Assembly: GCA_024637035.1 (NCBI GenBank)
Contig: JAGXFW010000015.1
Coordinates: 1-64,000 of the forward strand
Direction: 5' to 3'
From: Actinomycetes bacterium
GTDB lineage: Bacteria; Actinomycetota; Thermoleophilia; RBG-16-64-13
DNA length: 64,000 nucleotides
A program made the translations under genes and the position numbers. This document shows, piece after piece, positions 44,305-62,511 of the stretch. Position 1 is the stretch's first letter; the number at the start of each line of letters is the position of its first letter. The notes beneath the pieces are model-generated. The model did not search any database and had not been told where the DNA came from. It saw only the letters and a list, made by a program, of their open reading frames with translations.

Positions 44305-44352
44305 CTAGGAGGCTGCTGAGAAGCGAATCGTCACCCTTCGGCAGCCTGCTAG
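44305..44352. repeat. CTAG-ended palindromic repeat, short copy at the ccdA stop
   Basis: CTAGGAGGCTGCTGAGAAGC...CTTCGGCAGCCTGCTAG, 48 bp with imperfect inverted ends. The right CTAG (44349-44352) contains the ccdA stop codon. It can form a stem-loop and may terminate transcription of ccdA. Confidence 0.75.
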
Positions 44353-45071
44353 AACTCGAACAGCTGATAGCCCGCCAGTCGCGCGGTGAGCCAGGTGAAC
44401 TGACCGCCGATCATCAGCAGACCGTAGCCCACCAGTAGGAGGCCTGAGACCACCTTGATCACGCCAAAGTGACGTTTCACCCAGGAGAAGGCGCCCATCG
44501 CGCGGGCGAAGAACAACCCGGAGAGCACGAAGGGAACAGCGAGGCCCAGAGAGTACGTTGCGAGCAGTGCGGCGCCGCCGAACGGGCTCCGACCGGTGGC
44601 TGCAAGCGTGAGGATCGAGGCGAGGATGGGTCCGACGCATGGCGTCCAACCGATCGAGAAGGCCACGCCGGCCAACCCCGCCCCCACCAATCCGCCGGGC
44701 ACCCGGTAGGGCAGCAACCGGCGCTCACGCTGGAACACGCTCAGGGGAAGAAGGCCCGAGACCAGGATTCCCATTACCACGAGCATCACACCGGATGCGA
44801 TTTGCAGGGTGCGTCTGTGCGCCAGGAGCACATCGCCCACGAACCCGGCACCCGCGCCCGCTAGTGTGAAGACGAGCGAGAAGCCCGCCACGAAGGCCAG
44901 GGTGGCGAAGAAGACGCGCCGGGTATCGACGTGCAGACGATCCAGCGACACTCCCGACACGAACGAGAGATACCCGGGCAGAAGAGGCAGGACGCAGGGG
45001 CTGAGGAAGCTGGCCGCGCCGGCCACTAGAGCCAGTCCGAAGGCTGCGAAGTTCAGCTCCTCGATGCTCAT
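44349..45071 (-). CDS. ccdA: CcdA-type cytochrome c biogenesis / thiol-disulfide transmembrane protein
   Basis: 240 aa, about six transmembrane helices. FLSPCVLPLLPGYLSFVSGVSL (residues 22-43) contains the first redox Cys, and FSIGWTPCVGPILASILTLA the second; together these are the DsbD/CcdA reductant-shuttle pair. It carries electrons from cytosolic thioredoxin to outer-face thioredoxin-like proteins. ATG 45071 overlaps the stop of the adjacent Sec-TlpA gene (ATGA), so CcdA most likely re-reduces that protein. Confidence 0.94.
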   Translation of the reverse strand: MSIEELNFAAFGLALVAGAASFLSPCVLPLLPGYLSFVSGVSLDRLHVDTRRVFFATLAFVAGFSLVFTLAGAGAGFVGDVLLAHRRTLQIASGVMLVVMGILVSGLLPLSVFQRERRLLPYRVPGGLVGAGLAGVAFSIGWTPCVGPILASILTLAATGRSPFGGAALLATYSLGLAVPFVLSGLFFARAMGAFSWVKRHFGVIKVVSGLLLVGYGLLMIGGQFTWLTARLAGYQLFEF

Positions 45072-45625
45072 CGCAGCGCCGAGGTGATCTCCTCGAGCTC
45101 GGCGGCCGTGGTCTGACCCACCTTGACGCTCGCGATCATGCCCGCAGGATCGATGAAGATGGTCGTAGGCACAGCCGAGACCCTATAGGCGTTGGCGATG
45201 GAACCGGGAGGGTCGAGAAGCACGGGAAGGTCGAATCCCCCCTGCTGCATGAAGGCCCGCACGTCGTCCTCGGCGTCCTGGATCGCGATGAGGAGGAACC
45301 CCGTGTCGTCTTTGTGTTCTCGATAGAACTTATCGAGTTCGGGCGTCTCCGCCCTGCAGGTCGGTCACCAGGTGCCCCAGAAGACGATGACGAGTGGTTT
45401 CCCCCTGAACCCGGCCAGGGAGACGTCCGCGCCGTCCATCGTGGTCCCGCTGAAATCAGCCGCGGGCTTCCGGGTGTCGACAGAACTCGGCGCGGCAGTC
45501 ACCCCAGATCCGCTGGCCCCGTCCTGCCCTCCGCACCCAAGGATCCCTGCGAGCCCCAGCAAGAGTCCGATCACGACCAGCAAAGCCATAAGGGACGTCG
45601 ATCCTCTCTTCAACCCTGCACTCAT
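45068..45625 (-). CDS. TlpA/ResA-like thioredoxin lipoprotein with in-frame UGA (probable selenocysteine, UPTC active site)
   Basis: 185 codons. ATG 45625 with GAGGGG 7 nt upstream. Lipobox LAGILGC with Cys31, then a linker and the AhpC/TlpA fold: KPAADFSGTTMDGADVSLAGFRGKPLVIVFWGTW-U-PTCRAETPELDKFYREH. The UGA (45365-45367) is codon 87, exactly the first Cys of the WCxxC active site; Cys90 is intact and the frame continues through the cis-Pro region (VSAVPTTIFID) to a normal stop. After the UGA, GGGCG-GAGA-CGCCC forms a 5-bp stem-loop with its loop 16 nt downstream, where a bacterial SECIS is expected. A sequencing error (TGC to TGA) is the alternative. Overlaps ccdA. Confidence 0.82.
45365..45367 (-). 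other. UGA codon read as selenocysteine (predicted recoding site)
   Basis: In-frame TGA between TGG and CCG at the thioredoxin active site, with the candidate SECIS stem-loop at about 45344-45357 on the minus strand (GGGCG/CGCCC, GAGA loop). The SelB and tRNA-Sec genes needed are not in this window. Confidence 0.75.
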
Positions 45626-45701
45626 GCGTATTCCCCTCACCGACTTCATGGTCGAGCCACGTAGCAGCATCGCTCCGTTGGATTCTAGCAGACCCTCACC
45701 G

Positions 45702-45736: not shown

Positions 45737-46435
45737 TCAACTCGGGATCGCACACACCTTGGGACCGTCGTCGCACGACACGCTCCCGTCGAGGATCTGG
45801 ATGACCCGATCCACATCTGCCGTGGAGTCGGGGTTGTGCGTGACCATGACCACCGCATGGCCGCTGTCCGCCAAGGCCCGCAGCTGGTCGAGGATCTGGC
45901 GCCCTGTGGACGTGTCCAGACTACCCACGGGTTCGTCCGCGAGGATGATGGGCGGGTCGTTCACAACAGCTCGGGCGATCGCCACTCTGCCCTGCTCGCC
46001 GCCGGAGAGCTCTGAAGGAAGACGCCGTCCCTTTTGCTCGTCGATGCCCACTCGTGCGAGCGCCTCCAGGGCGCGCTCTCGCTTCCCGCGCTCCTTCAGG
46101 ATGGCCAGAGGCAACATGACGTTCTCCACCGCGCTGAGGTACGGCACCAGCTCGAGTTGTTGGAAGACGAAGCCGATGTACTCCCTTCGTAGATCGGCCT
46201 GGCGCTCTTGCGAGAGATCGTACACATCGATGCCGTCGATTCGCAGCGAGCCGGCCGTGGGTGGATTCATCGCGCCGAGGATGGAGAGCAGGGTGGTCTT
46301 GCCCGAGCCCGACGGTCCCATGATGGCCGCGTACTCGCCGGCCTCCACCTCGAGGGACACCTCGTGCAGGGCCACCACACGGCACCCCGCGTCGCCATAC
46401 TCCTTGCGAACGCCGTCGACCTCTATGAGGGCCAT
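45737..46435 (-). CDS. ABC transporter ATPase, LolD/MacB type
   Basis: 232 aa from ATG 46435. Walker A MGPSGSGKTTLLS, Q-loop VFQQLELVPYLSAVENV, signature LSGGEQGRVAIARA, Walker B IILADEPVGSLD, switch His VMVTHN. This is the MacB/LolD/FtsE class that works with FtsX-like permeases, two of which lie directly upstream. With the DUF2318 protein it resembles the Campylobacter jejuni Cj1660-Cj1663 set of the P19 iron locus. Probable mechanotransmission or export role in iron/heme handling outside the membrane; inferred from synteny. Confidence 0.9.
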   Translation of the reverse strand: MALIEVDGVRKEYGDAGCRVVALHEVSLEVEAGEYAAIMGPSGSGKTTLLSILGAMNPPTAGSLRIDGIDVYDLSQERQADLRREYIGFVFQQLELVPYLSAVENVMLPLAILKERGKRERALEALARVGIDEQKGRRLPSELSGGEQGRVAIARAVVNDPPIILADEPVGSLDTSTGRQILDQLRALADSGHAVVMVTHNPDSTADVDRVIQILDGSVSCDDGPKVCAIPS

Positions 46436-46505
46436 GTTCCCACTCCCGTCACTCTTGTCTCTACGGTGAGCCGAGTGGCGCGTCTGGTGCGCACGCAGCT
46501 CCTCA

Positions 46506-47663
46506 TCACACGTACTTCAACGCTGCCGCCGGATCCATCTGCGCGGCCCGCCAGGCCGGGTACACCGCGGCCGACAACCCCACGAGAAAGGCTACCGCCA
46601 CACCCGCCGCGATCAAGAGCGGATCGAAGGAGAAGCCCAACTCCGACTCGCTCATCAAGCGGGGCGCCAGCGAAGCGGCACCCAGGCCTCCCAAGACCCC
46701 GATCACAGCCGCGGAAGAACTCAGCATGGCTGACTCCAAGACTATGAGTGTGGCTATATGGCGCTGCTTGAAACCCACCGCCCGGAAGATGCCGATCTCC
46801 TTCTGGCGCTCCTGCACCGCGGTCAACATGGTGATCGTGACCACAAGTCCGGAGATCGCCACGATGAGGAGCATCACGGCAAGACCGAAACGGGCCAACG
46901 ACGAGTCGGTCTGGTTGTTGAACTCGATACTCTGCCTGACCGACGTGACCTCCGCATTGGGGAGCACCCGCGCAATATCCGCGACCAGCGCATCGACATC
47001 GGAGGTCGAGGCAGCCGTCACCTCTATGAGGTTGATCAGACCGCCCTCACCGGTCAGCGATGTGAGAGCGTCCATGCTCACTACGATCAGGTTGTCCTCT
47101 TCGTCACCCGTCTCCCACAGCAAGCCGGATACCGTGAACGGCTGCCCCCCTACGTCGACCGTGTCGCCACGCTCGAGTCCCAACTCGTTCCTCACGTTGA
47201 GACCCAGCAGGACCTCGTCAGGGGAGCCCGGAAGACTTCCTTCGACCCGCCACCAGAGCTTCACCTTCGCGCTCTCGGCGAGGTCGGTGCCCATGGCAAG
47301 GATCGTCTGCCCTTCGAGGCTCACGGGTGCGAGTCTCACCGGGACGACGGCCGCCAGCCTACCGCCCGCGCCGAGCGCCTGCACGGCCGCGAGGTCGTCG
47401 TTGGAAAGGTAGAGCACCTCCCCACTCCCGGCGGCCGAGACGCTCACGCCGCCGTATGAGAGATCCAGATCGGTGCGCGGCGGGGTCACGAGAAGATTCG
47501 AGCCGTAACGCGAGAGCCTGTCGTCCATATTCGCGCGGAGGGACAGTATCAGCGAGAGTACGAGCACGAACGCCGCCACCGCCACCGCGAGTCCGAAAGT
47601 GATGAGGGCGGCCTTGCCCTTCCGCCGCCGAAGGTTGCCGAACGCGATGTGCCGAAGCTCCAC
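46506..47663 (-). CDS. FtsX-like ABC permease (second of pair)
   Basis: 385 aa. One N-terminal transmembrane helix (ALITFGLAVAVAAFVLVLSLILSL), a large extracytoplasmic MacB_PCD-like domain (about 50-265), then three helices (GLAVMLLIVAISGLVVTITML; TLIVLESAMLSSSAAVIGVLGGLG; LLIAAGVAVAFLVGLSAAVYPAWRA). QERQKEIGIFRAVGFKQRHI is the coupling segment. ATG 47663 is 4 bp after the partner permease. Forms a heterodimer with it and with the ABC ATPase. Confidence 0.9.
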   Translation of the reverse strand: MELRHIAFGNLRRRKGKAALITFGLAVAVAAFVLVLSLILSLRANMDDRLSRYGSNLLVTPPRTDLDLSYGGVSVSAAGSGEVLYLSNDDLAAVQALGAGGRLAAVVPVRLAPVSLEGQTILAMGTDLAESAKVKLWWRVEGSLPGSPDEVLLGLNVRNELGLERGDTVDVGGQPFTVSGLLWETGDEEDNLIVVSMDALTSLTGEGGLINLIEVTAASTSDVDALVADIARVLPNAEVTSVRQSIEFNNQTDSSLARFGLAVMLLIVAISGLVVTITMLTAVQERQKEIGIFRAVGFKQRHIATLIVLESAMLSSSAAVIGVLGGLGAASLAPRLMSESELGFSFDPLLIAAGVAVAFLVGLSAAVYPAWRAAQMDPAAALKYV

Positions 47664-47667
47664 GAGG

Positions 47668-48825
47668 TCACACCCTCTTCATGGCCAGCGTGGGACTCAA
47701 GGCGGCAGCCCGCCCCGCCGGATAGAGGCTCGAGGCCAACACAACGAGAAGCGATGCCGCCAAGGCGATCGCCAGGTCGCCGGGAGAGAGCGCCACGGTC
47801 TCGCGTACCTGCGCGACCGCCTTGGCCATGGGTGCGTGCACTATCGCCGCTACCACCAGCCCCACTACTCCGCCCAACAGCGCCAGAGCGAGGTTCTCGA
47901 GCAAGATGATCTTGAAGATGTGCTGCCGCCGGTAGCCCACCGCCCTGAAGATGCCGATCTCACCGCGGCGCGCGCGCACGGACGAGAGAGTCGACACGAG
48001 GACGATCAAGCAACCCACAAGCACCATGAGCGCCGACAGCACCAGTGTGAACAGACGGAACTGGCTGATGAGGATCCTTCGCGATTCCGCCGCCTTCAGG
48101 ACGGCGGAAACCCGAGCGTAGGGCATCTCAGCGGAGATCTGAGCGTTGATATCTTCGATGGGGCACGTGGCGCACCAAGCGGACACTTCGAAGAAGCTCA
48201 CCTCGCCGGGACGCTCCCACAATCGCTGAGCCACGCCGAGGTCGAGGAAGAGGAGGTCGTCCTCCTGCGTGCCCGTGGGTTCCAACACACCCGAGACCAC
48301 GAAGCGCTCCCCGCGGACCTCGACGGAGTCACCGGGGCCCAGGCTGAGGTGCCGGGCCGCTCGATCACCCAGGAGCAGGTCAGTGGCGCCCGAGGGGGCC
48401 GTGCCCACCACGGTCCACCACTTCTTCAAGCTGAGTTCGGACGTCCAGTCGACGCCCACGCTCAGTACGCGTTGGCCACCTATCTCGGCCGACTCAACGA
48501 GTTTCGGAGCGATCAGATTGATGTTCTCGGCGTTCTTGATGCCCCGGATCACCGCGATATCGCTCATGTGCAGCGGTTCTACGTCGTAGGTGAGTCCACC
48601 TACTTGAACCCCCCCATACGACAGAGGCAACTGCTCGCTGCGCGGCACGACGACGATGTTTGCGCCATACTCGTCGACCTTGTTCTCCAGGTCGCGCTCG
48701 GCGCTTCGGGTCACGAGATAGAGGCTGGTGACCACCGCCACAGCGGCGGCGATCACCACGAACACCAGGGCGCTGCGCCACAGGTGGCGCCGCACGTTGC
48801 GGAACGCTATCGAGGAGAGCCTCAC
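47668..48825 (-). CDS. FtsX-like ABC permease (first of pair), with CxxC in the extracytoplasmic domain
   Basis: 385 aa, same architecture as its neighbour: helix at 19-38, outer MacB-type domain, three C-terminal helices, coupling motif RARRGEIGIFRAVGYRRQHI. The outer domain holds WCATCPIED, a CxxC pair not present in the partner permease; it may be a redox or metal site and a client of the Sec-thioredoxin encoded in the same cluster. ATG 48825 is 60 bp after the DUF2318 gene. Confidence 0.9.
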   Translation of the reverse strand: MRLSSIAFRNVRRHLWRSALVFVVIAAAVAVVTSLYLVTRSAERDLENKVDEYGANIVVVPRSEQLPLSYGGVQVGGLTYDVEPLHMSDIAVIRGIKNAENINLIAPKLVESAEIGGQRVLSVGVDWTSELSLKKWWTVVGTAPSGATDLLLGDRAARHLSLGPGDSVEVRGERFVVSGVLEPTGTQEDDLLFLDLGVAQRLWERPGEVSFFEVSAWCATCPIEDINAQISAEMPYARVSAVLKAAESRRILISQFRLFTLVLSALMVLVGCLIVLVSTLSSVRARRGEIGIFRAVGYRRQHIFKIILLENLALALLGGVVGLVVAAIVHAPMAKAVAQVRETVALSPGDLAIALAASLLVVLASSLYPAGRAAALSPTLAMKRV

Positions 48826-48885
48826 AGGCCTCGCCGAACCCCGCCGCAGCAGCCGCTTCGGTTTCTGGGATAGCGCAGAACGGTA

Positions 48886-49518
48886 CTAGAAGACCCTCGG
48901 CGCCCACGCCTCGAGATCAGCGTTGGGGATGAACACAGTATCGCCCCTGAGCTCCGCGGGTACTTCTTCAGGCGGGTAGGCCATGCAGCCGCCTGAGATG
49001 CCTTCCAGCGTGTCGAGATCCCAACGGGTGAAACATACATCGCACACCAGCGCGTCGCCCTCGATGTGGAAGCTGTCACCTTGGCACGGTTCGCAGAACG
49101 AGGTGGCGACTACGAGGTTGCCTTTGGGTGAGATGTAACTGAGAAGCGGCAGGGCGTTTCCGCCCGAGGACGTTACGTACCCGGCCGGCATGGGCTGCGA
49201 GCGTTCGTAGGTAAGCCCCACGATGAGACTATCCTTGAGCGCCTGCACCGGGAAGGAGAGACCTTCGGCGGTCTGCGGCGCTTCCAGCGGCACCATGGCT
49301 ACCTGGCCCGCCGGATACGACACGCCGGAGTCCACGGACGCGCCGCCTACCGACGGCGGAACCACGAAGTACTGGTATGCCGCGAAGCCCGCGAAGGTAA
49401 GCCCGAGTACCATGATGCTCACCGCGACGAACTTCCCCACCGGGAACTTACCGGCCTCTTCGAACCGTTCCCGCTTCTCCCTCAGATCGCCCTTTCGGGC
49501 CGCCTGCTTTGTCGCCAC
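48886..49518 (-). CDS. DUF2318 membrane-anchored Fe-S/heme-type protein (FtrD-like)
   Basis: 210 aa; ATG 49518 with GAGGGAGATGAAG upstream. One transmembrane helix (29-52) and an outside domain matching DUF2318: ATSFC142EPC145QGDSFHIEGDALVC159DVC162FTRWDLDTLEGISGGC178MAYPP. The two CxxC pairs and His151 are probable iron ligands. In Campylobacter and FtrABCD-type systems this domain accompanies ferrous iron uptake. First gene of the unit DUF2318-FtsX-FtsX-ABC(-TlpA-CcdA); a BlaI-type operator overlaps its promoter. Confidence 0.88.
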   Translation of the reverse strand: MATKQAARKGDLREKRERFEEAGKFPVGKFVAVSIMVLGLTFAGFAAYQYFVVPPSVGGASVDSGVSYPAGQVAMVPLEAPQTAEGLSFPVQALKDSLIVGLTYERSQPMPAGYVTSSGGNALPLLSYISPKGNLVVATSFCEPCQGDSFHIEGDALVCDVCFTRWDLDTLEGISGGCMAYPPEEVPAELRGDTVFIPNADLEAWAPRVF

Positions 49519-49564: not shown

Positions 49565-49581
49565 TACTACAAGGCGTAGTA
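49565..49581. promoter_or_regulatory. BlaI-type operator, site A (DUF2318 operon)
   Basis: TACTAC-AAGGC-GTAGTA, a perfect 6+6 dyad with a 5-bp spacer, 47 bp before the DUF2318 start. On the minus strand it overlaps a -35-like TTGTAG, which is followed after 16 bp by a TATACA -10 box, so binding would block RNA polymerase. Confidence 0.8.
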
Positions 49582-49671: not shown

Positions 49672-50697
49672 TCAGTCGCGAACGACAGGATCCACGCACT
49701 CGTCGTGCGAGGTCGTATCCCCGTGCAGAGCGGCAGTACCGGCCGGTGCCACTTGCAGCCCATGGCACGTCGAGCAGTCGGATCGCGAGGCCAAGGTGAC
49801 GCCGGTGAACGCGAAGGCGCTACTGGAGAAGGCGCTCACCACCACGACGAACATGAGGGCCACGGCGGCGAGTCGGCGCTTCGACGTGGCAACGCGGCTG
49901 GTGGAGAGAAGGCCGCGCACCCGCTCTCCCACGTCTCCCTCTTCGGCGAAGGCCGTAGTGACGATCTCGACACGGCTGGAGGGGGTCAGCGCGAGCAGGG
50001 ACCGCGCGAACTTCGTGAGACTCGCGGCCACGAGAAGACCGTCGCCGGTGCGGTCGCGGGCGAACTCGTCGGCCGCTCGCTCCTGCGCCTTCCGCAGACG
50101 GGCGTAGGCCATGCTCACACCGGGCACCAGGGCGAAGGTGAGAGCCAGCGTTCGAGCCACGAGCACGATGACATTGTCGCCGGCGACCGCGTGGCCCTCC
50201 TCGTGCGCGAGCACAGCGTGGAGTTCGTCCTCATCGAGGGTGGCCAGAAGGCCGGAAGAGACGATCACCTGAGGGCGCCAGAAGCCGATGGTGTACGAGA
50301 CCGGCGCCGGGTCTTCGACCACATGCACCCGTCCACGCAGGCCCGGTGGAACGGCACCGCGGAACTCCGTCGCCGAGCGCACCACATCGTGGCGTCGGCG
50401 GGTCGAGCAACCGGTCTGCCCGCATATCGCGACTCCGGCGAACAGCACGAGCCCCGCGATCACCCCGCCGATGAGGAAGGAGAACGTGGATCCGGCCCAG
50501 GGCGGGAGTGGTGTCGCGCAGCCCGCTTCCATGTCGCACGCGAGCCCCGCGTGCACGAGAAGGCCGTGTGGCAGGTACCGCAGGAAGAGCGACACGAGCA
50601 GAGCGAGCGTGGCGCCCGTCGCGGCGAGAAGAGCGGCGAGGTAGGCGTAGGTGAGCGTCCTCGGGCGCGTGCGTCCCTCAAGCAGACGACGGACCAA
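49672..50697 (-). CDS. BlaR1-like M56 zinc metallopeptidase with C-terminal CxxCH heme-c motif
   Basis: 341 aa from TTG 50697; CTG 50736, overlapping the blaI stop as CTGA, is a possible earlier start that would restore a longer first helix (TVTYALILTGPWLV). Helices at about 15-40, 72-92, 176-195 and 276-296. M56 motif H165EEGH169 with a downstream ERAADEF glutamate ligand. The outside tail (297-341) carries C308STCH312, three more His and a Cys, the signature for covalent heme c, where BlaR1 has its penicillin-binding domain. It probably senses heme availability or cytochrome c maturation and cleaves the BlaI-type repressor. Paired with blaI. Confidence 0.85.
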   Translation of the reverse strand: MVRRLLEGRTRPRTLTYAYLAALLAATGATLALLVSLFLRYLPHGLLVHAGLACDMEAGCATPLPPWAGSTFSFLIGGVIAGLVLFAGVAICGQTGCSTRRRHDVVRSATEFRGAVPPGLRGRVHVVEDPAPVSYTIGFWRPQVIVSSGLLATLDEDELHAVLAHEEGHAVAGDNVIVLVARTLALTFALVPGVSMAYARLRKAQERAADEFARDRTGDGLLVAASLTKFARSLLALTPSSRVEIVTTAFAEEGDVGERVRGLLSTSRVATSKRRLAAVALMFVVVVSAFSSSAFAFTGVTLASRSDCSTCHGLQVAPAGTAALHGDTTSHDECVDPVVRD

Positions 50698-50732
50698 CCA
50701 AGGCCCGGTGAGAATCAGAGCGTAGGTGACTG

Positions 50733-51170
50733 TCAGGCCGAAGGCAGAGATGATCGCCGCTCCCGGCGCTTCTCATCGATGATCGCCGCCAGCAGGTCGA
50801 GATCGGCTCCCTCTTCCTCTGACAGGTGCTCCACGAAGTGCGCGAGCACCGGGCGGTTGACGCCCCCGAAGAGACCCTCGACCACGCTCCGCACGACCCC
50901 GGTACAAAATGAATCCCGGGTCTCAGCAGGGCTGTAGAGATACGCTCGGCCCTGCTGACTACGGCTGAGCAGCCCTTTCTCGGCCAGTCTACCCATGACG
51001 GTCATCACCGTCGTATAGGCGATCTCACGACGCTCGGCGAGGCATTCGTGGATATCGCGAACCGAGGCGGTGCCTCGTTCCCACATGCATTCCATTATCT
51101 CGGCTTCGAGCTCGCCGAGTACCTGCCGCAGACCTTCTTGGCCCGTGTTGAGATTCACGGCTCCACCCAT
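50733..51170 (-). CDS. blaI: BlaI/MecI/CopY-family transcriptional repressor
   Basis: 145 aa from ATG 51170. Winged helix: LGELEAEIMECMWERGTASVRDIHECLAERREIAYTTVMTVMGRLAEKGLLSRSQQGRAYLYSPAETRDSF, with the YTTVMTVMxRLxxKG recognition helix. The C-terminal dimerisation helix follows. Such repressors bind short dyads and are cleaved by the paired M56 protease. Its own promoter holds the same dyad found before the ccm, DUF2318 and TPR-lgt units, so it is probably autoregulated and the regulator of all four. Confidence 0.92.
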   Translation of the reverse strand: MGGAVNLNTGQEGLRQVLGELEAEIMECMWERGTASVRDIHECLAERREIAYTTVMTVMGRLAEKGLLSRSQQGRAYLYSPAETRDSFCTGVVRSVVEGLFGGVNRPVLAHFVEHLSEEEGADLDLLAAIIDEKRRERRSSLPSA

Positions 51171-51201: not shown

Positions 51202-51218
51202 TACTACCAGTCGTAGTA
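51202..51218. promoter_or_regulatory. BlaI-type operator, site B (blaI promoter)
   Basis: TACTAC-CAGTC-GTAGTA, 32 bp before blaI. On the minus strand it covers the spacer and -10 of a promoter TTGCGG-17 bp-TAGTAT. This fits autorepression. Confidence 0.82.
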
Positions 51219-51439: not shown

Positions 51440-52237
51440 CTAACGCAGGTGGGATAGTTGACGAAGACGATCGAGACGCGAGCCCATGTCAAGCTGGCGC
51501 ACCCGCACGATCAGGAGGTAGACGTACAGCAGAGTTATGGCGGCCAAGGAGAGCATGAGCACCGCCTCCATGGATGAGTCCAGGTTCATGCCTTCCCCCG
51601 TCACCAAGGTGGGGTGGATGGTGCGCCACCACCGGATCGACATGAAGACGATCGGCACGTCGATCCAACCCACGATGCCGAACACGGCGGAGAGTCGAGC
51701 GCGACTATGTCCCTCGGTGATGGAAGACCGCAGCATGAGATACGCCACGTAGATGAACCATAGAACCAGCGTTGTGGTGAGGCGAGGGTCCCAGGTCCAG
51801 TAGGCACCCCAGATGGGCTTGGCCCACAAGGGTCCGGTGAGGAGTGTGATCGTGGTGAACAGCACACCCAGTTCAGCGGAAGCCCCCGCGATCCGGTCGT
51901 AGCGAAGGTCCTTCTTGACCAAGTACACGATGCTACAGATGAATACGATGGTGAACGCGGGGCCCAGGGCCACCCAGGCACTCGGCATGTGGAAGTAGAA
52001 GATGCGCTGCACGTGGCCCATGACCGCCTCAGTGGGCGCCCAGATGATCGCACCGTAGAGGGCAACGAGCACGGAGAGGATGGCCACCACGCCCAAGATG
52101 TCCAGCCAGAGAGTGCGCCCGGGTTCAGGGAGAGGGGCTGCGGCTGCGGTAGTCACGCCGCCGCCGGCTCCGCCATCCGCAACGGCCGCCGTCGCGTCAG
52201 GCTGTGCGGTGCTCCCTGGAGACACGGTCGTCATCAT
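51440..52237 (-). CDS. ccmC: Cytochrome c maturation heme-handling protein CcmC
   Basis: 265 aa; ATG 52237 (or 52234) overlaps the ccmB stop. Six transmembrane helices; VQRIFYFHMPSAWVA provides one heme-axial His and the Trp-rich heme-handling motif WGAYWTWDPRLT is intact; the second conserved His (RTIHPTLV) is also present. It loads heme on to CcmE. About 40 extra Ala/Gly/Thr residues precede the first helix. Confidence 0.93.
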   Translation of the reverse strand: MMTTVSPGSTAQPDATAAVADGGAGGGVTTAAAAPLPEPGRTLWLDILGVVAILSVLVALYGAIIWAPTEAVMGHVQRIFYFHMPSAWVALGPAFTIVFICSIVYLVKKDLRYDRIAGASAELGVLFTTITLLTGPLWAKPIWGAYWTWDPRLTTTLVLWFIYVAYLMLRSSITEGHSRARLSAVFGIVGWIDVPIVFMSIRWWRTIHPTLVTGEGMNLDSSMEAVLMLSLAAITLLYVYLLIVRVRQLDMGSRLDRLRQLSHLR

Positions 52238-52911
52238 TCCTCCACTGCGTAGTCGAACAGCATGATCGCCACTGTCAGGAAGATCACATCATAGACCACC
52301 AATAATGCCAGCCACAGGCCGGCGCTGGACAGAGGATCGCCGTCGAGTATGCGCCCCGACGACTTCGCGGCGGCGAGTACCACGGGCACCATCACCGGGA
52401 AGAGCAGGATCGAGAGGATCACGTCGCGCGACTTCAACCCCACCGATACCGCCGAGAACAGCGTGCCGACCGCGGCGAAGCCGATGGTCGCCAGAACGAG
52501 GATGAGCCCAAGAGGCAGGGCCACCTGCAACAGATCGACGTTGTAGAGCACCGAGAAGAACAGGAACACCACCAAGCCCATGCTCAGGGTGAAGATGGAG
52601 TTGCCGAAGAACTTGCCGAGGTAGATCACGGAGCGGTCCACAGGGCAGAGCAGCAGACCCTGCAGGCAGTCGTTCTCCTTCTCGGCGATGAAGCTCCGGT
52701 TAAGGCCGAGGATGCCGGCGAACGTGAACGCCGCCCAGAGCACACCAGGCTTCACGAGGTTCTCTTCCCGCAGCCCCGGTTCTATGCCGAAGTTGAAGAT
52801 CAAGATGACCAGGAAGCCGAAGAGCAGCATCGAGAGGACGGTCTCCCGGGTTCGAAGCTCCCCGATGATGTCCTTGCGGGCGATGACCCAGGCTTGGCTC
52901 AGGAATCCCAT
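52234..52911 (-). CDS. ccmB: Cytochrome c maturation ABC permease CcmB
   Basis: 225 aa. Six transmembrane helices in the CcmB pattern (AWVIARKDIIGELRTRETVLSMLLFGFLVILIFNF; GILGLNRSFIAEKENDCLQGLLLCPVDRSVIYLGKFFGN). With CcmA it forms the ABC complex that releases holo-CcmE from CcmC. ATG 52911 overlaps the ccmA 3' end by 13 bp. Confidence 0.93.
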   Translation of the reverse strand: MGFLSQAWVIARKDIIGELRTRETVLSMLLFGFLVILIFNFGIEPGLREENLVKPGVLWAAFTFAGILGLNRSFIAEKENDCLQGLLLCPVDRSVIYLGKFFGNSIFTLSMGLVVFLFFSVLYNVDLLQVALPLGLILVLATIGFAAVGTLFSAVSVGLKSRDVILSILLFPVMVPVVLAAAKSSGRILDGDPLSSAGLWLALLVVYDVIFLTVAIMLFDYAVEE

Positions 52912-53669
52912 CGGAAGTCCTTGCCCACGTGATCGAAATAGGTCTGCTCGAAGCCCGCCTTGTCGAGGGTGGCCACGTTCTCTCTGAACACGAGGCGGCC
53001 GCGCACCTGGATGGCCACCTCATCGCACATCTCAAGGCCTTGCTCGAGGTTGTGCGTTGTCAAGACGAGGGTCCGCTCGCCCGTGTGGAGCGTCTTCAGC
53101 ACGTCGCGCAGCATCCTCGATGCGTGCTGATCGAGCCCGGTATAGGGCTCATCGAGGAACATGATGTCGGGGTCGTGAAGAAGCGCCCTCGCGATGGAGA
53201 GCCGCTGCTGCATGCCCCTCGAGTACGTTCGCACGAGGTCGTCACGACGACCGCTCAGACCGACCTCCTCCAAGAGAGCCGTGATCCGGTCATCGAGATC
53301 GGGCACACGGTACATGCGTCCGAAGAACGTGAGGTTCTCGTTCGCGGTGAGGTTCGGGTACAGGTAGGTGTTGTGCGAGATGACTCCTACGCGCCGGCGC
53401 AGACGATCCGCCTGACCGGGGAGCGCGCATCCTCCCACTTCGACTTCACCTTGGGTCGGCCCGATCTGGGTCGAGAGCACCCTGATCAGAGTGGTCTTGC
53501 CGGCGCCGTTCGGCCCGAACACGGTGAGGAACCGCCCGGACTCCAGCTCCAAGTCGAGCCCACGGATCGCGGGAAAGTGGTCGAAGTACTTCCACAGACC
53601 CCTCACGCGGATGGCCGGCTGCCGACCTCCGGACACTTCGCCCGCGGAAGACCCGTCCCCGCCCGTCAC
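52899..53669 (-). CDS. ccmA: Cytochrome c maturation ABC ATPase CcmA
   Basis: 256 aa from GTG 53669, 17 bp after the preceding stop; a longer reading overlaps the zinc-ribbon gene. Walker A FGPNGAGKTTLIRVL, Q-loop VISHNTYL, signature YSRGMQQRLSIARA, Walker B IMFLDEPYTGLD, switch His LTTHN. Specificity as CcmA comes from its place before ccmB and ccmC. Confidence 0.92.
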   Translation of the reverse strand: MTGGDGSSAGEVSGGRQPAIRVRGLWKYFDHFPAIRGLDLELESGRFLTVFGPNGAGKTTLIRVLSTQIGPTQGEVEVGGCALPGQADRLRRRVGVISHNTYLYPNLTANENLTFFGRMYRVPDLDDRITALLEEVGLSGRRDDLVRTYSRGMQQRLSIARALLHDPDIMFLDEPYTGLDQHASRMLRDVLKTLHTGERTLVLTTHNLEQGLEMCDEVAIQVRGRLVFRENVATLDKAGFEQTYFDHVGKDFRWDS

Positions 53670-53686
53670 GTCGACGACCTGTGCCC

Positions 53687-54292
53687 TCAGTCCCGCACCT
53701 CCGCACCACAGCCTGCGCAGAACCGATGGTTCTCGGCTATGTCGCGCCCGCACTCGTCGCAGACCACTCCGTCGGAGTGGCCCGCGCCGGCAGCGGCCGA
53801 CGCTTCCTCCAGATCCACACCGCACGAGGCGCAGAAGCGCGAGCCGGGGGGATTCTCTCGACCGCAGTCGGCGCAGGTGGCGGTGGACGCGGCTGCGCCG
53901 GACGCAGCCTTGGCCGGCTTCGCCTCCGGGGCCGCGGCCGGACGGCTTGCCGCCTGGCGCTGGGCGCCTTTGCCGCGCCGCCGTGAATTGGGTCCGTCGG
54001 CGGGGGAGCCCTTCTCCGCTCCGTCGATCGCCTCGAGGATCTCGAGGGCGTCTTCACGGTACCGCGCATCGATCTCGGCGAAGTCTTTGTCGGAGAGCTT
54101 GCCCATCTTGAAGTCGAACTCCAACTCCTTCAGAGCCGAGTACGTGGACTCCTTCTTGCGAAGCAGGTCTCCCATCTCCTCCGAGAGTTCCTGTGGCTCG
54201 GGCTCGACGTCTTGCCCGCTCGTGACCAGCGGATAGCCGACGAACGCCACCACCGATAGGGCCAGGATCACCTGGATCAGCATCTCGAACAC
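53687..54292 (-). CDS. CcmI-like membrane protein with double zinc ribbon
   Basis: 201 aa, ATG 54292. N-terminal transmembrane helix (MFEMLIQVILALSVVAFVGYPLV), a helical segment LLRKKESTYSALKELEFDFKMGKLSDKDFAEIDARYREDALEIL that resembles the start of CcmI/CycH, an Ala/Pro-rich linker, then two zinc ribbons (CADCGRENPPGSRFCASCG; CDECGRDIAENHRFCAGCG). No TPR. Position between ccmH and ccmA suggests an apocytochrome-chaperoning or assembly role; the TPR part of CcmI may be supplied by the protein at 61.0-61.7 kb. Confidence 0.75.
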   Translation of the reverse strand: MFEMLIQVILALSVVAFVGYPLVTSGQDVEPEPQELSEEMGDLLRKKESTYSALKELEFDFKMGKLSDKDFAEIDARYREDALEILEAIDGAEKGSPADGPNSRRRGKGAQRQAASRPAAAPEAKPAKAASGAAASTATCADCGRENPPGSRFCASCGVDLEEASAAAGAGHSDGVVCDECGRDIAENHRFCAGCGAEVRD

Positions 54293-54365
54293 GTTCTACA
54301 TCACTCCTTCGCGCCGGTGACCGTCGAAGCCGCTTGTCTCACGTCTGGGCGGAGCCCGCCGGGGT

Positions 54366-54938
54366 TCAATCGAAATTCCGTAGTTCGTCTTCGAGTTTGC
54401 GCTTCAACTCCTCGGGTGCGAGATCGACGTCGCGCGTCGGCACCAGTTCCGCATCCGCACCATCGCGTCGGGCCCACACTCCGATAAGGAAGTACATCGC
54501 GACAGCTCCGATGATGAGCGCCGCGAACGGCAAGACCCACGCCAAAAGGTTGAAACCTCGCTTGGTCGGCGCGGCGAGCACCTGTTCGCCGAACTCGTCG
54601 ACGTAATACTTCACGAGCGCCTCCGGCGACTGCCCGGCCTCCAACTGCTGCTTGATGTACTGCTTGGCCGGGATGCCCCAGCCGCAGTCCTGGTGGGGGC
54701 ACTCCGTGAGCACGGCGGCACACCCGCACTGGCAGGTCAGCTTATCGGACACGCTCGACACCGGCGGAACGGCGGCGAAGGCGGGCACGGCGATGAACAG
54801 CAACACTGCGAATGCGATGATCGCAGCCCCGAGCAAAGCCGCCGGCCAGGGAAACGTCGGCTGCGCGGCCACCTTGGCAACAGCCGGTTTGACGGTGGCA
54901 CGCACCACACGGCGCCTATGACGCAGACTAGATCTCAT
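54366..54938 (-). CDS. ccmH: CcmH/CycL-type thiol oxidoreductase
   Basis: 190 aa, overlapping ccmF by 11 bp. Signal/membrane helix at 33-56, then DKLTC69QC71GC73AAVLTEC80PHQDC85GWG, Cys-rich relative of the LRCxxCQ motif, the three-helix CcmH body (AKQYIKQQLEAGQSPEALVKYYVDEFGEQVLAAP) and a second transmembrane helix, then an acidic cytosolic tail (LAPEELKRKLEDELRNFD). It keeps apocytochrome CxxCH thiols reduced for heme attachment with CcmF. The CQCGC form differs from the classical LRCxxC. Confidence 0.9.
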   Translation of the reverse strand: MRSSLRHRRRVVRATVKPAVAKVAAQPTFPWPAALLGAAIIAFAVLLFIAVPAFAAVPPVSSVSDKLTCQCGCAAVLTECPHQDCGWGIPAKQYIKQQLEAGQSPEALVKYYVDEFGEQVLAAPTKRGFNLLAWVLPFAALIIGAVAMYFLIGVWARRDGADAELVPTRDVDLAPEELKRKLEDELRNFD

Positions 54939-56931
54939 GGAGCCTCACCTGTCTTTCGTAGCGAGCCGCCAGACGCTTCGCGTCGCGCTTGTCTGGCCAG
55001 ATTGCGATGATGCCGCCGAGGACCATGACGAACCCGCCGATCCACAACCAGCTCACCAGCGGGTTGATGCGAACGTCGACGTTGGCCTCGCCGGTCTCAG
55101 CCGAGTACTCGAGCAGCGACACGTACACGTCGCGGGCGAGAGTGACGTTGCGATCCACCCTGGTCCACGGCTGGTCCTTTGCGAAATAGTACTCTTTCGA
55201 CGGGGCCACGGTGCCGAGGAACCGCCCGCCTTGGGTCACGGTGAACGTGACACGACCTACGCTCTTCTCATTGGTATCGTACGAGTCGAAGCTGTCGTAC
55301 GTGACCTCGTAGCCACCTACCTCGATGGACTCGCCCTTCGTGATGGTCGCCGATAGCTCCTGCTTGAACGCGTACGATCCCGTCACTCCGAAGAGCAGGA
55401 AGATGACCCCGATGTGCACGATGTAGCCGCCGTAGCGCCTCTTGTTGCGCCAGATGAGCGAACCGAGTGCCTTGACGAGGTTCTCCCCCGTCATCTCCCG
55501 GCGTACCCATGCGCCACGGACGAACTCCATGAGGACCGTCGTCACGACGAATGCGCAGAGCGTGAAGCTGATGAGCGCATACGTATGGCGCATGCCGGTG
55601 ACGATCAGGACCGCCAGCACGACGATGGCCGCGATGGTCGGCACCATGATGTTCTTGCCGAGATTCGCCAGCGTAGCGCGACGCCAGGCGATCAAGGGGC
55701 AGATGCCCGTGATGAACATCAGGACCAACCCGATCGGCGCCATCACCTGGTCGAAGAACGGTGGGCCCACGGTCACCTTGTTGCCGGTGGCCGCCTCACT
55801 GATGATCGGGAACAACACGCCCCAGAGTACGGTGACGGCCATGCCCACCAGCAGAAGGTTGTTGAGCAAGAAGGTCGATTCACGGGAGACGAAGCTGTCG
55901 AGCTCGTTTCGAGATTTCAGCATGTCGAGACGGCTGAAAAGCAGGTTAAGCGAGAACACAAGGATCAGCCCCAAGAAGCCGAGGAAGAACGGGCCGAGGC
56001 TGCTCTGGCCGAAGCTGTGCACCGAACTGATGATGCCCGAGCGGGTGAGGAACGTGCCGAAGATGGTGAGCGAGAAAGTGAACACCACGAGCACGATGTT
56101 CCACACCTTCAGCATGTCCTTCTTCTCTTGGATCATGACGGAGTGCAGGAAGGCCGTCCCTGTGACCCAGGGCATGAAGGAGGCGTTCTCCACCGGATCC
56201 CAGGCCCAGTATCCCCCCCAGCCGAGGGTCACGTAAGCCCACCACGCCCCCATGATGTTGCCGATGGTGAGGAATATCCAGGCAAAGATGGTCCAACGCC
56301 GCGTCGAGCGGATCCAGAAGTCGCCCAGCCTGCGGGTGATGAGGGCGGCCATCGCGAAAGCGTACGGGATCGCAAAGCCAACGTAGCCCAGGTAGAGGGT
56401 CACGGGATGCACCACCATCCCCGGGTTCTCCAGCATCGGGTTCAGACCCGAGCCATTGTCGGGAAAGACACCGGCGGGCACCGTCGCGAAAGGATTCGAC
56501 CCGCGGGATACGGTCATGATGAGCGCGAAGAAGAGCGCGACGGCCATCAGGATCGAGATCACATACGGCAGGATCTCCCTGTTCTTGACCCGGTTCTGCC
56601 ACACGACCACGGCCGAGAACGCGCCCAAGATCACCAGCCACAACAGCATCGACCCCGAGTTGCCGGCCCAGAACGCCGACAGCGTGTAGAACCACGAGAG
56701 GTCGTTCGACGTGTAACTGTAGACGTACTCGTTCGTGTAGTCGCGGGTCATCAGCGCGTATACCAGCGCCGCGGAGGCCACCGCCGAGGCTGCGGCCAGC
56801 GCATACACGCTCCGCTCTGCGCTCCTCATCCAGCCGCGACTCCCGGTGCGCACCGCGACCAGCGGAGCGACCAGCCCGAAGGCCGAGACGACAACAGTTA
56901 GCAACAGCGCCGAGTAGCCGATCTGATTCAT
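54928..56931 (-). CDS. ccmF: Cytochrome c heme lyase subunit CcmF
   Basis: 667 aa from ATG 56931, about 13-15 transmembrane helices. The WWD heme motif is WGGYWAWDPVENASFMPW; axial His regions are PGMVVHPVTLYLGYVG, GTAFLHSVM and RRYGGYIVHIGVIF. The C-terminal outer domain and final helix are typical. It accepts heme from CcmE and joins it to apocytochromes together with CcmH. Confidence 0.96.
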   Translation of the reverse strand: MNQIGYSALLLTVVVSAFGLVAPLVAVRTGSRGWMRSAERSVYALAAASAVASAALVYALMTRDYTNEYVYSYTSNDLSWFYTLSAFWAGNSGSMLLWLVILGAFSAVVVWQNRVKNREILPYVISILMAVALFFALIMTVSRGSNPFATVPAGVFPDNGSGLNPMLENPGMVVHPVTLYLGYVGFAIPYAFAMAALITRRLGDFWIRSTRRWTIFAWIFLTIGNIMGAWWAYVTLGWGGYWAWDPVENASFMPWVTGTAFLHSVMIQEKKDMLKVWNIVLVVFTFSLTIFGTFLTRSGIISSVHSFGQSSLGPFFLGFLGLILVFSLNLLFSRLDMLKSRNELDSFVSRESTFLLNNLLLVGMAVTVLWGVLFPIISEAATGNKVTVGPPFFDQVMAPIGLVLMFITGICPLIAWRRATLANLGKNIMVPTIAAIVVLAVLIVTGMRHTYALISFTLCAFVVTTVLMEFVRGAWVRREMTGENLVKALGSLIWRNKRRYGGYIVHIGVIFLLFGVTGSYAFKQELSATITKGESIEVGGYEVTYDSFDSYDTNEKSVGRVTFTVTQGGRFLGTVAPSKEYYFAKDQPWTRVDRNVTLARDVYVSLLEYSAETGEANVDVRINPLVSWLWIGGFVMVLGGIIAIWPDKRDAKRLAARYERQVRLHEI

Positions 56932-57067
56932 ATAGGTCGATCCTCCGTGCCTCTCACATGCCGCCGGGATGCGGCGGCGTCAGCCAGTGATTCCAGGTGC
57001 GTGTCGCCCGGGAACCGATGCTCCCGTCAGATGCGGATCGTGGTCGAAGCGCACCCGGACGATCCGC

Positions 57068-57490
57068 CTATTTGCCGTCAGCCGCGCTCTCCTCGCTCTC
57101 GTACTTGCTCGGGCACTTCGCCATGAGAAAGTCGGCGGCGAAGGTACCGTCTTTGAGGAAGTCTCCCTCCACAACGACCTCTACAGGCTGGTTCGGGTCG
57201 TCCACGAACGTGTCGGGCACTGCACCCGTGTACTTCACGAAGAGCGTGTTCTGCGTGGCTTCCTTGTCGTAGATCTCAAACTCGATGGGCTCGCCCACTC
57301 CAGCCTTGACAAGGGTGCCGCTCACCAGGTCGCCCGCCACACGCACGTTCTCTGACTCGCCTTTGGTGGCCAGTTCCGTGACGGTGTAGTAGTACACCAT
57401 GTTCTCGCGGACCGCGAAGAAGGCCAGAGTGGCAATCGCCCCGACGATCACGATGCCGCCTACCAGGAACTTCAGCTTTTTTGATCTCAT
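57068..57490 (-). CDS. ccmE: Heme chaperone CcmE, cysteine (CxxxY) type
   Basis: 140 aa, ATG 57490. Transmembrane anchor at 8-27 and the OB-fold domain (YYYTVTELATKGESENVRVAGDLV...VVVEGDFLKDGTFAADFLMAKC126PSKY130ESE). Classical CcmE binds heme through His in HDENY; here the site is CPSKY, the CxxxY variant known from archaea and Desulfovibrio (system I*). It carries heme from CcmC to CcmF. The 136 bp to ccmF hold no other gene. Confidence 0.93.
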   Translation of the reverse strand: MRSKKLKFLVGGIVIVGAIATLAFFAVRENMVYYYTVTELATKGESENVRVAGDLVSGTLVKAGVGEPIEFEIYDKEATQNTLFVKYTGAVPDTFVDDPNQPVEVVVEGDFLKDGTFAADFLMAKCPSKYESEESAADGK

Positions 57491-57565
57491 GTGACTACCC
57501 TTTCCGGGGATGACCGCGATCGGCCGGCGATCTCGTGGGGTATTGCGAAACGAGGAGTGGAGAGC

Positions 57566-58027
57566 TCAATAGAGGACCCTTTCGAGACCTGCTCCACCGA
57601 GGACATCGGTGGTGAGTTTCTCAGCGAAGAGCTTGTCGGGGCATCTTACCAGAACCTCCACAGCCTCGAAGGGACGACCCGGCTCCATGGAACCGGTGGC
57701 CACGATGTGCTCGTACGAGCGAAGTCGATCGGGGAAAGCACCCGAGTAGGCGATGTCGAGAGTGGCTCCTGAATCATCGCGTATGGCGAATGTAGCCGTG
57801 TCGCCCACCTGGTTGAGACTCTCGGGCACCACTTGCCCACCCACACGAACGTTGGCGACCGCTCCGGCCTGTTGGAGCTCCCCCACCGTCATGTAGAAGT
57901 CGCCACCCACGGTCAGATAGAGCACCAGCCAGGCGGCAACGAATACGAGCACCACCGCACCCGCGATCATCTTCCACCTGCGCCTCGAACCGGCCACCGC
58001 CGAGGGTGCCGACACCGAATCCGTCAC
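57566..58027 (-). CDS. ccmE2: Second CcmE-like heme chaperone with CPDKL motif
   Basis: 153 aa from ATG 58027. Same plan as the neighbouring CcmE: anchor at 18-40, OB fold (FYMTVGELQQAGAVANVRVGGQVVPESL, ATLDIAYSGAFPDRL, EPGRPFEAVEVLVRC129PDKLF134AEK). The Cys is kept, but the Tyr of CxxxY is Leu133, with Phe134 next. It may be a heme carrier with a different partner, a transfer intermediate, or a non-heme paralogue. Similarity to ccmE suggests an old duplication. Confidence 0.85.
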   Translation of the reverse strand: MTDSVSAPSAVAGSRRRWKMIAGAVVLVFVAAWLVLYLTVGGDFYMTVGELQQAGAVANVRVGGQVVPESLNQVGDTATFAIRDDSGATLDIAYSGAFPDRLRSYEHIVATGSMEPGRPFEAVEVLVRCPDKLFAEKLTTDVLGGAGLERVLY

Positions 58028-58089
58028 GAGACCCGCTCCTTCACTGATCCGCCTTCACACGTCTGGCTTCAAGCTTCATGTCGTCATTC

Positions 58090-58641
58090 TCACTGCAGCG
58101 CCAGGGCGGAGGCGACCAGCTCGCCTAGGCCGTCCTCGGCCAGCGGGGCGTCGATCCCCAACCAATAGAGGTAGACACCCGACCGAAAGTAGTAGTGAAC
58201 CTGCCCCATGCCTTCGAGCCGATATGCCGGTACGTCCTGCATCTCAATCGGCATAGGCTGAGAAAAAGGTGAGTCTCCCTCCATGATGCGATCGGTCATG
58301 CGCACCATGAGGTCCTCGGCGTCGATCTCTCGCACCGACTTACTGACCCACACGGTCGCCCGCCCACCGCCCTCGTATTCGGCCACCCATGCCGCGTCGA
58401 ACCCCTCGCCGAGAGACGTGCCGTGGAGTTCCTCCACCGAGACGAGCCCTTGCTCGCCACTCAGCTCGGCCACACGAGGCAGACGGGCGAGCACCTGCGG
58501 CAGGGGCGAACCACCTGTCTCAGCTACCACGTTCGGCGCACCGGCGGGATGCGGATCGAGCACGTTGGTCCAGAAGGACCACACCCCCAGAGCCGCAACT
58601 ACTACCAGCGCGAGAGCGGTGAGCACGGGACGCGTCTTCAT
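58090..58641 (-). CDS. Membrane-anchored extracytoplasmic protein of unknown function, first gene of ccm operon
   Basis: 183 aa, ATG 58641. N-terminal signal anchor (LTALALVVVAALGVWSFW), no lipobox. The outside domain (GRATVWVSKSVREIDAEDLMVRMTDRIMEGDSPF; YRLEGMGQVHYYFRSGVYLYWLGIDAP) has an alpha/beta look but I recognise no family and see no cysteine or heme motif. It is the first gene behind the double BlaI operator and is followed after 62 bp by ccmE2, so a part in cytochrome c biogenesis is likely. Confidence 0.7.
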   Translation of the reverse strand: MKTRPVLTALALVVVAALGVWSFWTNVLDPHPAGAPNVVAETGGSPLPQVLARLPRVAELSGEQGLVSVEELHGTSLGEGFDAAWVAEYEGGGRATVWVSKSVREIDAEDLMVRMTDRIMEGDSPFSQPMPIEMQDVPAYRLEGMGQVHYYFRSGVYLYWLGIDAPLAEDGLGELVASALALQ

Positions 58642-58744: not shown

Positions 58745-58784
58745 TACTACGCAGCGTAGTACAAAGCAACTACGACACGTAGTA
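58745..58784. promoter_or_regulatory. Double BlaI-type operator, sites C1 and C2 (ccm operon)
   Basis: C1 (58745-58761) is TACTAC-GCAGC-GTAGTA; C2 (58768-58784) is AACTAC-GACAC-GTAGTA. Centres are 23 bp apart, about two helical turns. On the minus strand a promoter TTGCTT-17 bp-TATGAT lies across C1, about 100 bp before the first gene of the ccm operon. Confidence 0.85.
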
Positions 58785-61007: not shown

Positions 61008-61691
61008 TCATTGGGTGGTGGTAGCCGTGGTCCCCGTGGTCTCGGCGCCGTGCGGGCTGCTGCCCGCGGCCTCCGTCTGACCCATGAGATCGACGAACTG
61101 CTTTGCCATCTCGCCCAGCTCGCTGAGCGGGTTGACTTCCACCACCTTCGCCCAGGTTTCCTTCGCCTTGTCGCGCTGGTCCGTGGAGAAGTAGACCACC
61201 GCGAGATCGTACAGAGCCACCTGCGAGTCGGGGGACTCGGCGATGGCGGCTTCGAGCTTCTTCTGGGCCCCGGCGGTGTCGCCGTTCACGAAATCGACCA
61301 TCGCCAGGCCGGCCTTCGCCTCAGCGCTCCCTGCATCTATCGCCAGAGCTTCGTTCAGCACTCGGGTCGCGTCGTCCACGCGGTTCGCCTGCAGATACGC
61401 GTCTCCGAGCGCCAGGACCGCTGTCAGATCGGTCTTGTCGGCCTCATAGGCGGCCTCAGCTTCGGCCACGAGGGTCTCGAGAGAAGCGTCCGTACCGGTG
61501 GCACTCGAGCCGTCACCCAAGTCTGGATGTCCCTCGGGTACGGTCGCGTCAGAAGGGATTGCAGGGGCGGATCCAAGAGTGGTCGCGCTGGTCCCGCCGT
61601 CGTTCCCGCCACTGAGGTTGGGGACCACGACGATGAGGCCGACCACGACCACGGCCGCCACGATGATCGCGACAAGGTAGTTCCTGTTCAT
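61008..61691 (-). CDS. Membrane-anchored TPR protein
   Basis: 227 aa; ATG 61691 with AAGGAAG upstream. Transmembrane anchor at 5-25, Ser/Thr/Gly-rich linker, then TPR units from about residue 72 to 200 (LAEAEAAYEADKTDLTAVLALGDAYLQANRVDDATRVLNEALAIDAGSAEAKAGLA...), similar to the TPR part of CcmI/NrfG. It could hold apocytochromes for CcmF/CcmH, supported by the shared operator type. Stop is 66 bp before lgt. Confidence 0.78.
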   Translation of the reverse strand: MNRNYLVAIIVAAVVVVGLIVVVPNLSGGNDGGTSATTLGSAPAIPSDATVPEGHPDLGDGSSATGTDASLETLVAEAEAAYEADKTDLTAVLALGDAYLQANRVDDATRVLNEALAIDAGSAEAKAGLAMVDFVNGDTAGAQKKLEAAIAESPDSQVALYDLAVVYFSTDQRDKAKETWAKVVEVNPLSELGEMAKQFVDLMGQTEAAGSSPHGAETTGTTATTTQ

Positions 61692-61755
61692 CCGTGCGCT
61701 TCCTTTCGACCGTCCGATTATCCGCTGTGCCGTCACTGGAGAAGTCGAAACGGCA

Positions 61756-61772
61756 TACTACAGGATGTAGTG
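61756..61772. promoter_or_regulatory. BlaI-type operator, site D (TPR-lgt unit)
   Basis: TACTAC-AGGAT-GTAGTG, one mismatch from the perfect dyad, 65 bp before the TPR gene. On the minus strand the right half gives a TAGTAT -10-like box. It lies in a divergent region, so it might affect the ferredoxin side too. Confidence 0.72.
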
Positions 61773-62175: not shown

Positions 62176-62511
62176 ATGTTCAAGTTGTTCAGCCGTGAGC
62201 CGCAGGGGTACACCGACCTATCCCCGGCCGATGTGAACGCGCGCATAGCAGCCGGCGGTGGCGTACAGCTCATCGACGTGCGCTCTCCGGGCGAGTTCTC
62301 GCAGGGCCACATCCCCAAAGCGAAGTTGATACCGCTGAACGACCTTTCTCGCAGGCACCAAGAGCTGAAGAAGAGCGGGGACATAATCCTCTACTGCCTG
62401 AGCGCCGCTCGAAGCAAGCGCGGAGCGCGACTCCTCGTAGAACTCGGATACGAGAACGTGTACAACATGGAGGGCGGTATCAGCCGCTGGCCCTTCGACG
62501 TGAAGCGATGA
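62176..62511 (+). CDS. Rhodanese-domain sulfurtransferase (cytosolic)
   Basis: 111 aa, ATG 62176. Single rhodanese domain: VQLIDVRSPGEFSQGHIPKAKLIPLND and active-site loop YC74LSAARS. It forms a Cys-persulfide and passes sulfane sulfur. Overlaps the next gene by 4 bp (ATGA). Confidence 0.92.
   Translation: MFKLFSREPQGYTDLSPADVNARIAAGGGVQLIDVRSPGEFSQGHIPKAKLIPLNDLSRRHQELKKSGDIILYCLSAARSKRGARLLVELGYENVYNMEGGISRWPFDVKR

Follow-up and report, generated by a model that had tools for sequence, protein, structure and literature searches.

A BlaR1-like protease with a Cys/His-rich tail and a predicted cytochrome c maturation regulon in an actinomycetotan genome

The staphylococcal systems BlaR1/BlaI and MecR1/MecI couple a BlaI-type repressor to an M56 zinc protease with an extracellular loop, EL1, between transmembrane helices TM2 and TM3 and a C-terminal part outside the membrane. 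One proposal for BlaR1 is that signalling starts once the ligand has displaced EL1 from the sensor domain (PMC9834060). The pair described here resembles the staphylococcal systems in all of these components. Unlike BlaR1 and MecR1, it carries a Cys/His tail of about 45 residues instead of the penicillin-binding sensor, and its predicted regulon consists of ccm, Fet and cytochrome genes, not of beta-lactamase. In Mycobacterium tuberculosis, the available part of one account links the BlaI protein Rv1846c to energy metabolism through the Rv1303-ATP synthase operon (PMC12565901). Our repressor is likewise an actinobacterial BlaI-type protein; however, its targets differ, and that part of the account gives no ccm link for Rv1846c. 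We found in the literature neither an M56 protein with a CxxCH motif nor a BlaI/BlaR1-type regulator of cytochromes. We regard the locus as a form of the BlaR1/BlaI system whose predicted regulon is new and whose signal is probably of a new kind too.

The window, that is, the whole stretch of 64,000 nucleotides that was analysed, encodes the M56 protein in an ORF at 49672-50697 on the minus strand, 341 amino acids long when counted from a TTG. Upstream of this TTG, at 50697, the frame stays open as far as 50772 and encodes the first transmembrane helix, ISAFGLTVTYALILTGPWLV, which translation from the TTG would omit. The true start therefore probably lies further upstream, overlapping blaI, and we place the gene at 49672..50754 (minus strand) with an uncertain 5' end. 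No ATG, GTG or TTG from which a full-length protein could start occurs at 50700-50772, the stretch from the end of blaI to TM1, and the same absence is seen in some orthologues. Translation therefore probably begins at a non-standard codon that overlaps the 3' end of blaI. At the other end of the gene, selenocysteine read-through of the TGA stop was considered and rejected: orthologues stop with TAG, TAA or TGA, and the sequence after the stop is unconserved.

Three residues of the zinc-protease motif HEEGH (50191..50205, minus strand), H184, E185 and H188, are invariant in an alignment of 32 M56 proteins, as are E225 and D229 downstream. The ORF scores 38.1 bits with the Pfam Peptidase_M56 profile (cut-off 31) and 50.1 with M48. 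An AlphaFold model of the protein (mean pLDDT 81) was matched by Foldseek to the Staphylococcus aureus BlaR1 chains 8exr, 8exs and 8ext with probabilities of 0.99-1.00 and E values of about 0.006-0.04. With BlaR1 taken as a guide, the model suggests four transmembrane helices, EL1 between TM2 and TM3, a protease domain inside the cell and a tail after TM4. No penicillin-binding sensor domain is found in the ORF, which ends about 45 residues past TM4 and scores 16.9 bits with the blaR1_generic profile, below its cut-off of 400. ORF reading, Pfam and the structural comparison thus agree with what had been described from the sequence alone, an M56 protein with HEEGH and a CSTCH-containing tail but no penicillin-binding domain. 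Among its closest named relatives, all from uncultured actinobacteria, one carries the label Thermoleophilia.

Directly upstream of the M56 gene and in the same operon, blaI (50733..51170, minus strand) overlaps the M56 frame and encodes a BlaI-family repressor (Penicillinase_R, PF03965, 108 bits). The best NCBIfam match of this repressor is the related family CopY/TcrY (TIGR02698), at 61 bits, which is below the cut-off of 122 (121.95). CopY binds copper through C-terminal cysteines, and a BlaI without such a cysteine would not bind it in this way. The C-terminus of the window protein, RRERRSSLPSA, has no cysteine, so there is no C-terminal copper site of the CopY type.

A de novo dyad search in the upstream regions of 22 blaI genes, taken from this family and a sister family, returned ACTAC-N5-GTAGT in 13 of them; the full motif, which we call the BlaI box, is TACTACN5GTAGTA. 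Exact copies, given here without strand, are present in the window upstream of blaI-M56 (TACTACCAGTCGTAGTA, 51202..51218), between M56 and the DUF2318 operon (TACTACAAGGCGTAGTA, 49565..49581) and upstream of the ccm operon, where the box at 58745 is followed by one with a single mismatch at 58768 (58745..58784 together). Another box with one mismatch (61756..61772) precedes the TPR/CcmI-like gene at 61008-61736 on the minus strand. These three exact and two single-mismatch boxes compare with about 0 expected in random sequence of the same dinucleotide make-up.

The whole genome (3.57 Mb) contains 14 sites with at most one mismatch. Outside the window, one box lies ahead of both a second ccm operon and the Fer4_5 membrane protein gene divergent from it; others precede genes for a YHS-like protein, a His-rich secreted protein, a YtkA-like protein and a secreted Cys/His/Met-rich peptide of 72 amino acids. 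A 30-heme cytochrome c (L139:6005-9514, G000:C6) starts 37 bp after a box, and a 35-heme counterpart has the same box in a genome of the same genus (L161). Two single-mismatch sites, C6:189827 and C3:32417 (inside ccmH), lie within coding sequence and were treated as chance matches. Across the family, a box stands before ccm in every genome having both this M56 protein and CcmF (7/7); related genomes also have boxes before DUF2318 operons, and one genome of the same genus before a cation-efflux (CDF) transporter. From the placement of these operators, BlaI very probably controls the Ccm genes, and taken alone this part of the predicted regulon deserves high confidence. The suggestion in the sequence-only reading that ccm belongs to the BlaI regulon is supported, with exact boxes before the window ccm operon, the second ccm operon and the ccm genes of related genomes. 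The second ccm operon (L136, G000:C3:26000-45000) has its own CcmF, CcmH and DUF2318 protein and is divergent from the Fer4_5 membrane protein, of 698 amino acids, with the box between them.

On the strand of blaI, the gene order is TPR/CcmI-like, Lgt-like and zinc-ribbon proteins, the ccm operon, BlaI and M56, then FetA (DUF2318), two FtsX permeases, an ABC ATPase, thioredoxin, CcdA and FdhD; Lgt, CcmA, CcmB and FdhD were named from their sequences, CcmA and CcmB also from their position. The ccm operon (51440..58641, minus strand) encodes a 183-aa protein, CcmE, CcmE, CcmF, CcmH, a zinc-ribbon protein, CcmA, CcmB and CcmC. With two copies of CcmE, the F, H, A, B and C components and the TPR/CcmI-like protein adjacent, the location of the M56 gene beside Ccm genes, already pointed out from the letters alone, is confirmed. 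The two CcmE paralogues are neighbours (57068-58027, minus strand). At 62176-62906 on the plus strand, the window encodes two tandem rhodanese-domain proteins, the second of them secreted-like.

The direct downstream neighbours of M56 on the same strand, absent from that earlier description, form a DUF2318/FtsX/FtsX/ABC/thioredoxin/CcdA operon. Its Fet-like part (45737..49518, minus strand) comprises FetA (DUF2318/FtrD-like), two MacB/FtsX permeases and an ABC ATPase, with names taken from Campylobacter jejuni, whose fetABCDE genes encode in order a DUF2318 protein, two permeases, an ATPase and a thioredoxin (PMC10783030, PMC6083913). The window operon matches the FetMP-FetABCDEF system of C. 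jejuni in this order; it differs in the addition of CcdA and in having a BlaI box where C. jejuni has a Fur box. Neither FetM nor FetP was seen in or beside this operon. The TlpA-like thioredoxin (45080..45670, minus strand, 3' end approximate) contains an in-frame TGA, WGTW(TGA)PTC, in place of the first cysteine of its CxxC. Since this TGA is kept in five relatives and the genome carries a tRNA-Sec, the thioredoxin is probably a UxxC selenoprotein that ordinary gene calling shortens; a short hairpin just past the TGA is weak (z -1.7). The CcdA/DsbD-type membrane electron carrier follows at 44349..45071 (minus strand).

The C-terminal tail of the M56 protein, FTGVTLASRSDCSTCHGLQVAPAGTAALHGDTTSHDECVDPVVRD (49675..49809, minus strand), occupies the place of the BlaR1 penicillin-binding sensor and contains CSTCH (49762..49776, minus strand) followed by HGDTTSHDEC. 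We call the tail extracytoplasmic because TM4 precedes it, by analogy with BlaR1, and because the cytoplasmic sides of TM1-2, TM3 and TM4 are Arg-rich. It is modelled with low confidence (pLDDT about 45-55). Shuffling its residues yields CxxCH in about 1% of cases; the motif is unusual, yet not extreme for a tail so rich in Cys and His, and we therefore did not rely on it alone. A pair of cysteines, Cys54 and Cys60 in CDMEAGC (50518..50538, minus strand), lies in EL1, between TM2 and TM3.

Is the CxxCH the defining element of this sensor, as had been proposed? Nine M56 proteins from eight genomes of the same family were compared. Six of the loci are syntenic, M56 lying between ccm and thioredoxin-CcdA, and in five of these six the Fet genes stand between M56 and thioredoxin-CcdA. 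The six syntenic tails read CSTCH, CSACH, CAACH, CALSH, SPACH and SPTCH, so that among these close orthologues just the His of the motif never varies; the three non-syntenic tails have CAGSAACH, a lone STCLE and a lone VCAET. Both EL1 cysteines are invariant in the six close orthologues and also present in the three more distant copies (9/9, versus 3/9 for CxxCH). In the tree, the three proteins with CxxCH group together in a single supported subclade (100/94) spanning three genomes and two genera. On these comparisons, CxxCH is a lineage-specific tail form rather than a defining feature. Lack of conservation in orthologues, which the sequence-only reading had named in advance as grounds for refuting its proposal, is thus what the family shows.

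The sequence-only reading had made the sensor a client of the pathway that it regulates: Ccm would attach heme to CSTCH, and failed attachment would shift the state of the protease and derepress ccm. The regulatory half of this proposal is supported by the boxes before ccm, and the occurrence of CxxCH in three genomes, as well as the restriction of CH-type tails within the family to genomes with CcmF, fits the other half. Chemically, heme attachment is plausible in those three genomes, since neighbouring residues matter little to Ccm, which accepts most CXXCH motifs (PMC4158909). However, the syntenic orthologues with SPACH, SPTCH and CALSH lack one or the other cysteine and yet retain their ccm boxes, and single-Cys variants are reported not to be detectably used by E. 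coli Ccm (Allen 2002, cited in PMC3420020). Since one-Cys orthologues keep the regulon and that system makes no detectable use of such variants, covalent attachment of heme to the tail cannot be the general rule. A second M56 protein in a same-family Ccm+ genome, adjoining a DUF2318 operon, has a single tail cysteine and no CH, and the tail of about 45 residues shows no evident heme-binding fold. Attachment of heme to the tail is thus not supported and appears improbable as the basis of sensing. If it occurs at all, it would be in the CxxCH subclade, an improbable case in which the sensor of the ccm regulon would itself be a ccm product reporting maturation capacity to BlaI. Ccm as an obligate partner of M56 was also rejected, given that three same-family genomes carry CcmF without this M56 protein.

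A survey of the phylum identified M56-BlaI pairs in a second actinomycetotan family (f29) and in two further genomes, with the same box ahead of blaI and of the next gene, which in the annotated loci opens a DUF2318-FtsX operon. Where the contigs of the annotated f29 loci extend far enough, genes for CcdA and two decaheme cytochromes run divergently; a box also stands immediately ahead of ccmE-ccmF in one f29 genome. The M56 proteins of this group have Cx5-6C or a single cysteine in EL1 and Cys-rich tails, for example GSCGMGPECAAMNYECCK; Met is also present in the f29 tails. CcmF occurs in all 12 f29-group genomes searched, yet the box-associated M56 tails that we read contain no CxxCH, which again speaks against heme and disposes of a general tie between CH-type tails and CcmF: it fails outside the family.

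A BlaI-M56 pair in one further relative, genome G300 (L225), with a tail reading CAKQC...DCVKDC, is followed by a box and then by genes for a DsbD_2-cupredoxin fusion, a cupredoxin, an HMA protein and a CopA-like P-type ATPase, the latter named from its sequence motifs. This pair is a long branch in the tree, and no other relative stands in a clear copper operon. CcmF is almost absent from the sister family (f6), whose M56 tails read CxxxH...CxxxHPxH, with no CxxCH in those examined, and whose boxes precede genes for a lipoprotein and a NapH-like Fer4_5 protein. We consider copper the best single ligand candidate because of the G300 operon, the Met/His/Cys-rich proteins of the regulon, the metal-efflux gene and the reported targeting of c-type cytochrome assembly by copper toxicity (Durand 2015, cited in PMC10304878), with which a copper signal would fit. 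Taken by itself, copper as the tail ligand has slightly less than an even chance. The copper-like proteins of the window's own regulon (His/Met/Cys-rich peptides, YHS-like) all fall under Pfam cut-offs.

The main rival to copper is a thiol/disulfide signal, in which the EL1 pair and the tail cysteines would be oxidised and reduced with the outside redox state, oxidation inducing CcdA, thioredoxin and Ccm. The conservation of EL1 and tail cysteines across clades, the CcdA and UxxC thioredoxin of the operon and the CcdA divergent from blaI in f29 would all be expected under such a signal, whereas the His of the tails (also Met in f29) and the CopA/HMA operon of G300 suit a metal better, and the f6 tails look metal-binding, with boxes before genes for a lipoprotein and a Fer4_5 protein. 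We regard a redox switch as rather unlikely. Alternatively, the tail could be a remnant with no sensing role, the protein sensing through its membrane part or a partner. Most sampled actinobacterial M56 proteins indeed stop soon after TM4, without a Cys-rich tail, and the tail is poorly conserved; its cysteines nevertheless persist in two clades despite fast divergence, and this possibility seems very improbable. As the tails vary greatly from clade to clade, different clades may read different ligands.

On balance, the M56 protein appears to work in the manner of BlaR1 but to sense copper or the thiol state; attached heme is the less likely signal. The compared loci share a conserved core: the operator, the BlaI-M56 pair, cysteines in EL1 and in the outside tail, and a regulon that revolves around ccm, DUF2318 and CcdA. 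In the mechanism that we propose, BlaI would bind the TACTACN5GTAGTA operators and repress the genes behind them: blaI-M56 itself, one or more ccm operons, the operon running from DUF2318 and ABC genes to (seleno)thioredoxin and CcdA, and here also the 30-heme cytochrome. Outside the membrane, the tail and the EL1 Cys pair would make up a site for a soft ligand, copper being the likeliest, or else a thiol/disulfide switch. By analogy with S. aureus BlaR1, occupancy or oxidation would alter the contact between tail and EL1, and the protease inside the cell would be released, cut BlaI and derepress the regulon. That the pair controls a ccm/Fet-type regulon and that its tail senses by non-heme means is, as a joint proposition, somewhat better than an even bet. 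A set of actinomycetotan BlaI-M56 pairs thus appears to be dedicated to cytochrome c maturation and DUF2318/Fet functions, not to antibiotic resistance. Pairs without a beta-lactam domain gain a concrete regulon, operator and sensor anatomy, the Ccm pathway gains a candidate transcriptional control, and the signal of such BlaR1-like proteins becomes directly testable.

Two types of secreted protein were encountered repeatedly next to BlaI boxes. The first is a small peptide of 70-88 amino acids rich in His, Met and Cys, such as NAHMETMGTNGHDNVPFTCTMSHEACMG (L137:5519-5737, L162, L165, L171), with a box in four genomes and a C-terminal pattern (HAEC/HEAC) like that of M56 tails; the two copies tested gave no Pfam match. 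The second comprises proteins with a WPEYD motif (L136:9474-10529, L166, L175, L265, L266, L267), which are recurrently preceded by boxes in two clades; the L136 protein ends with a zinc ribbon.
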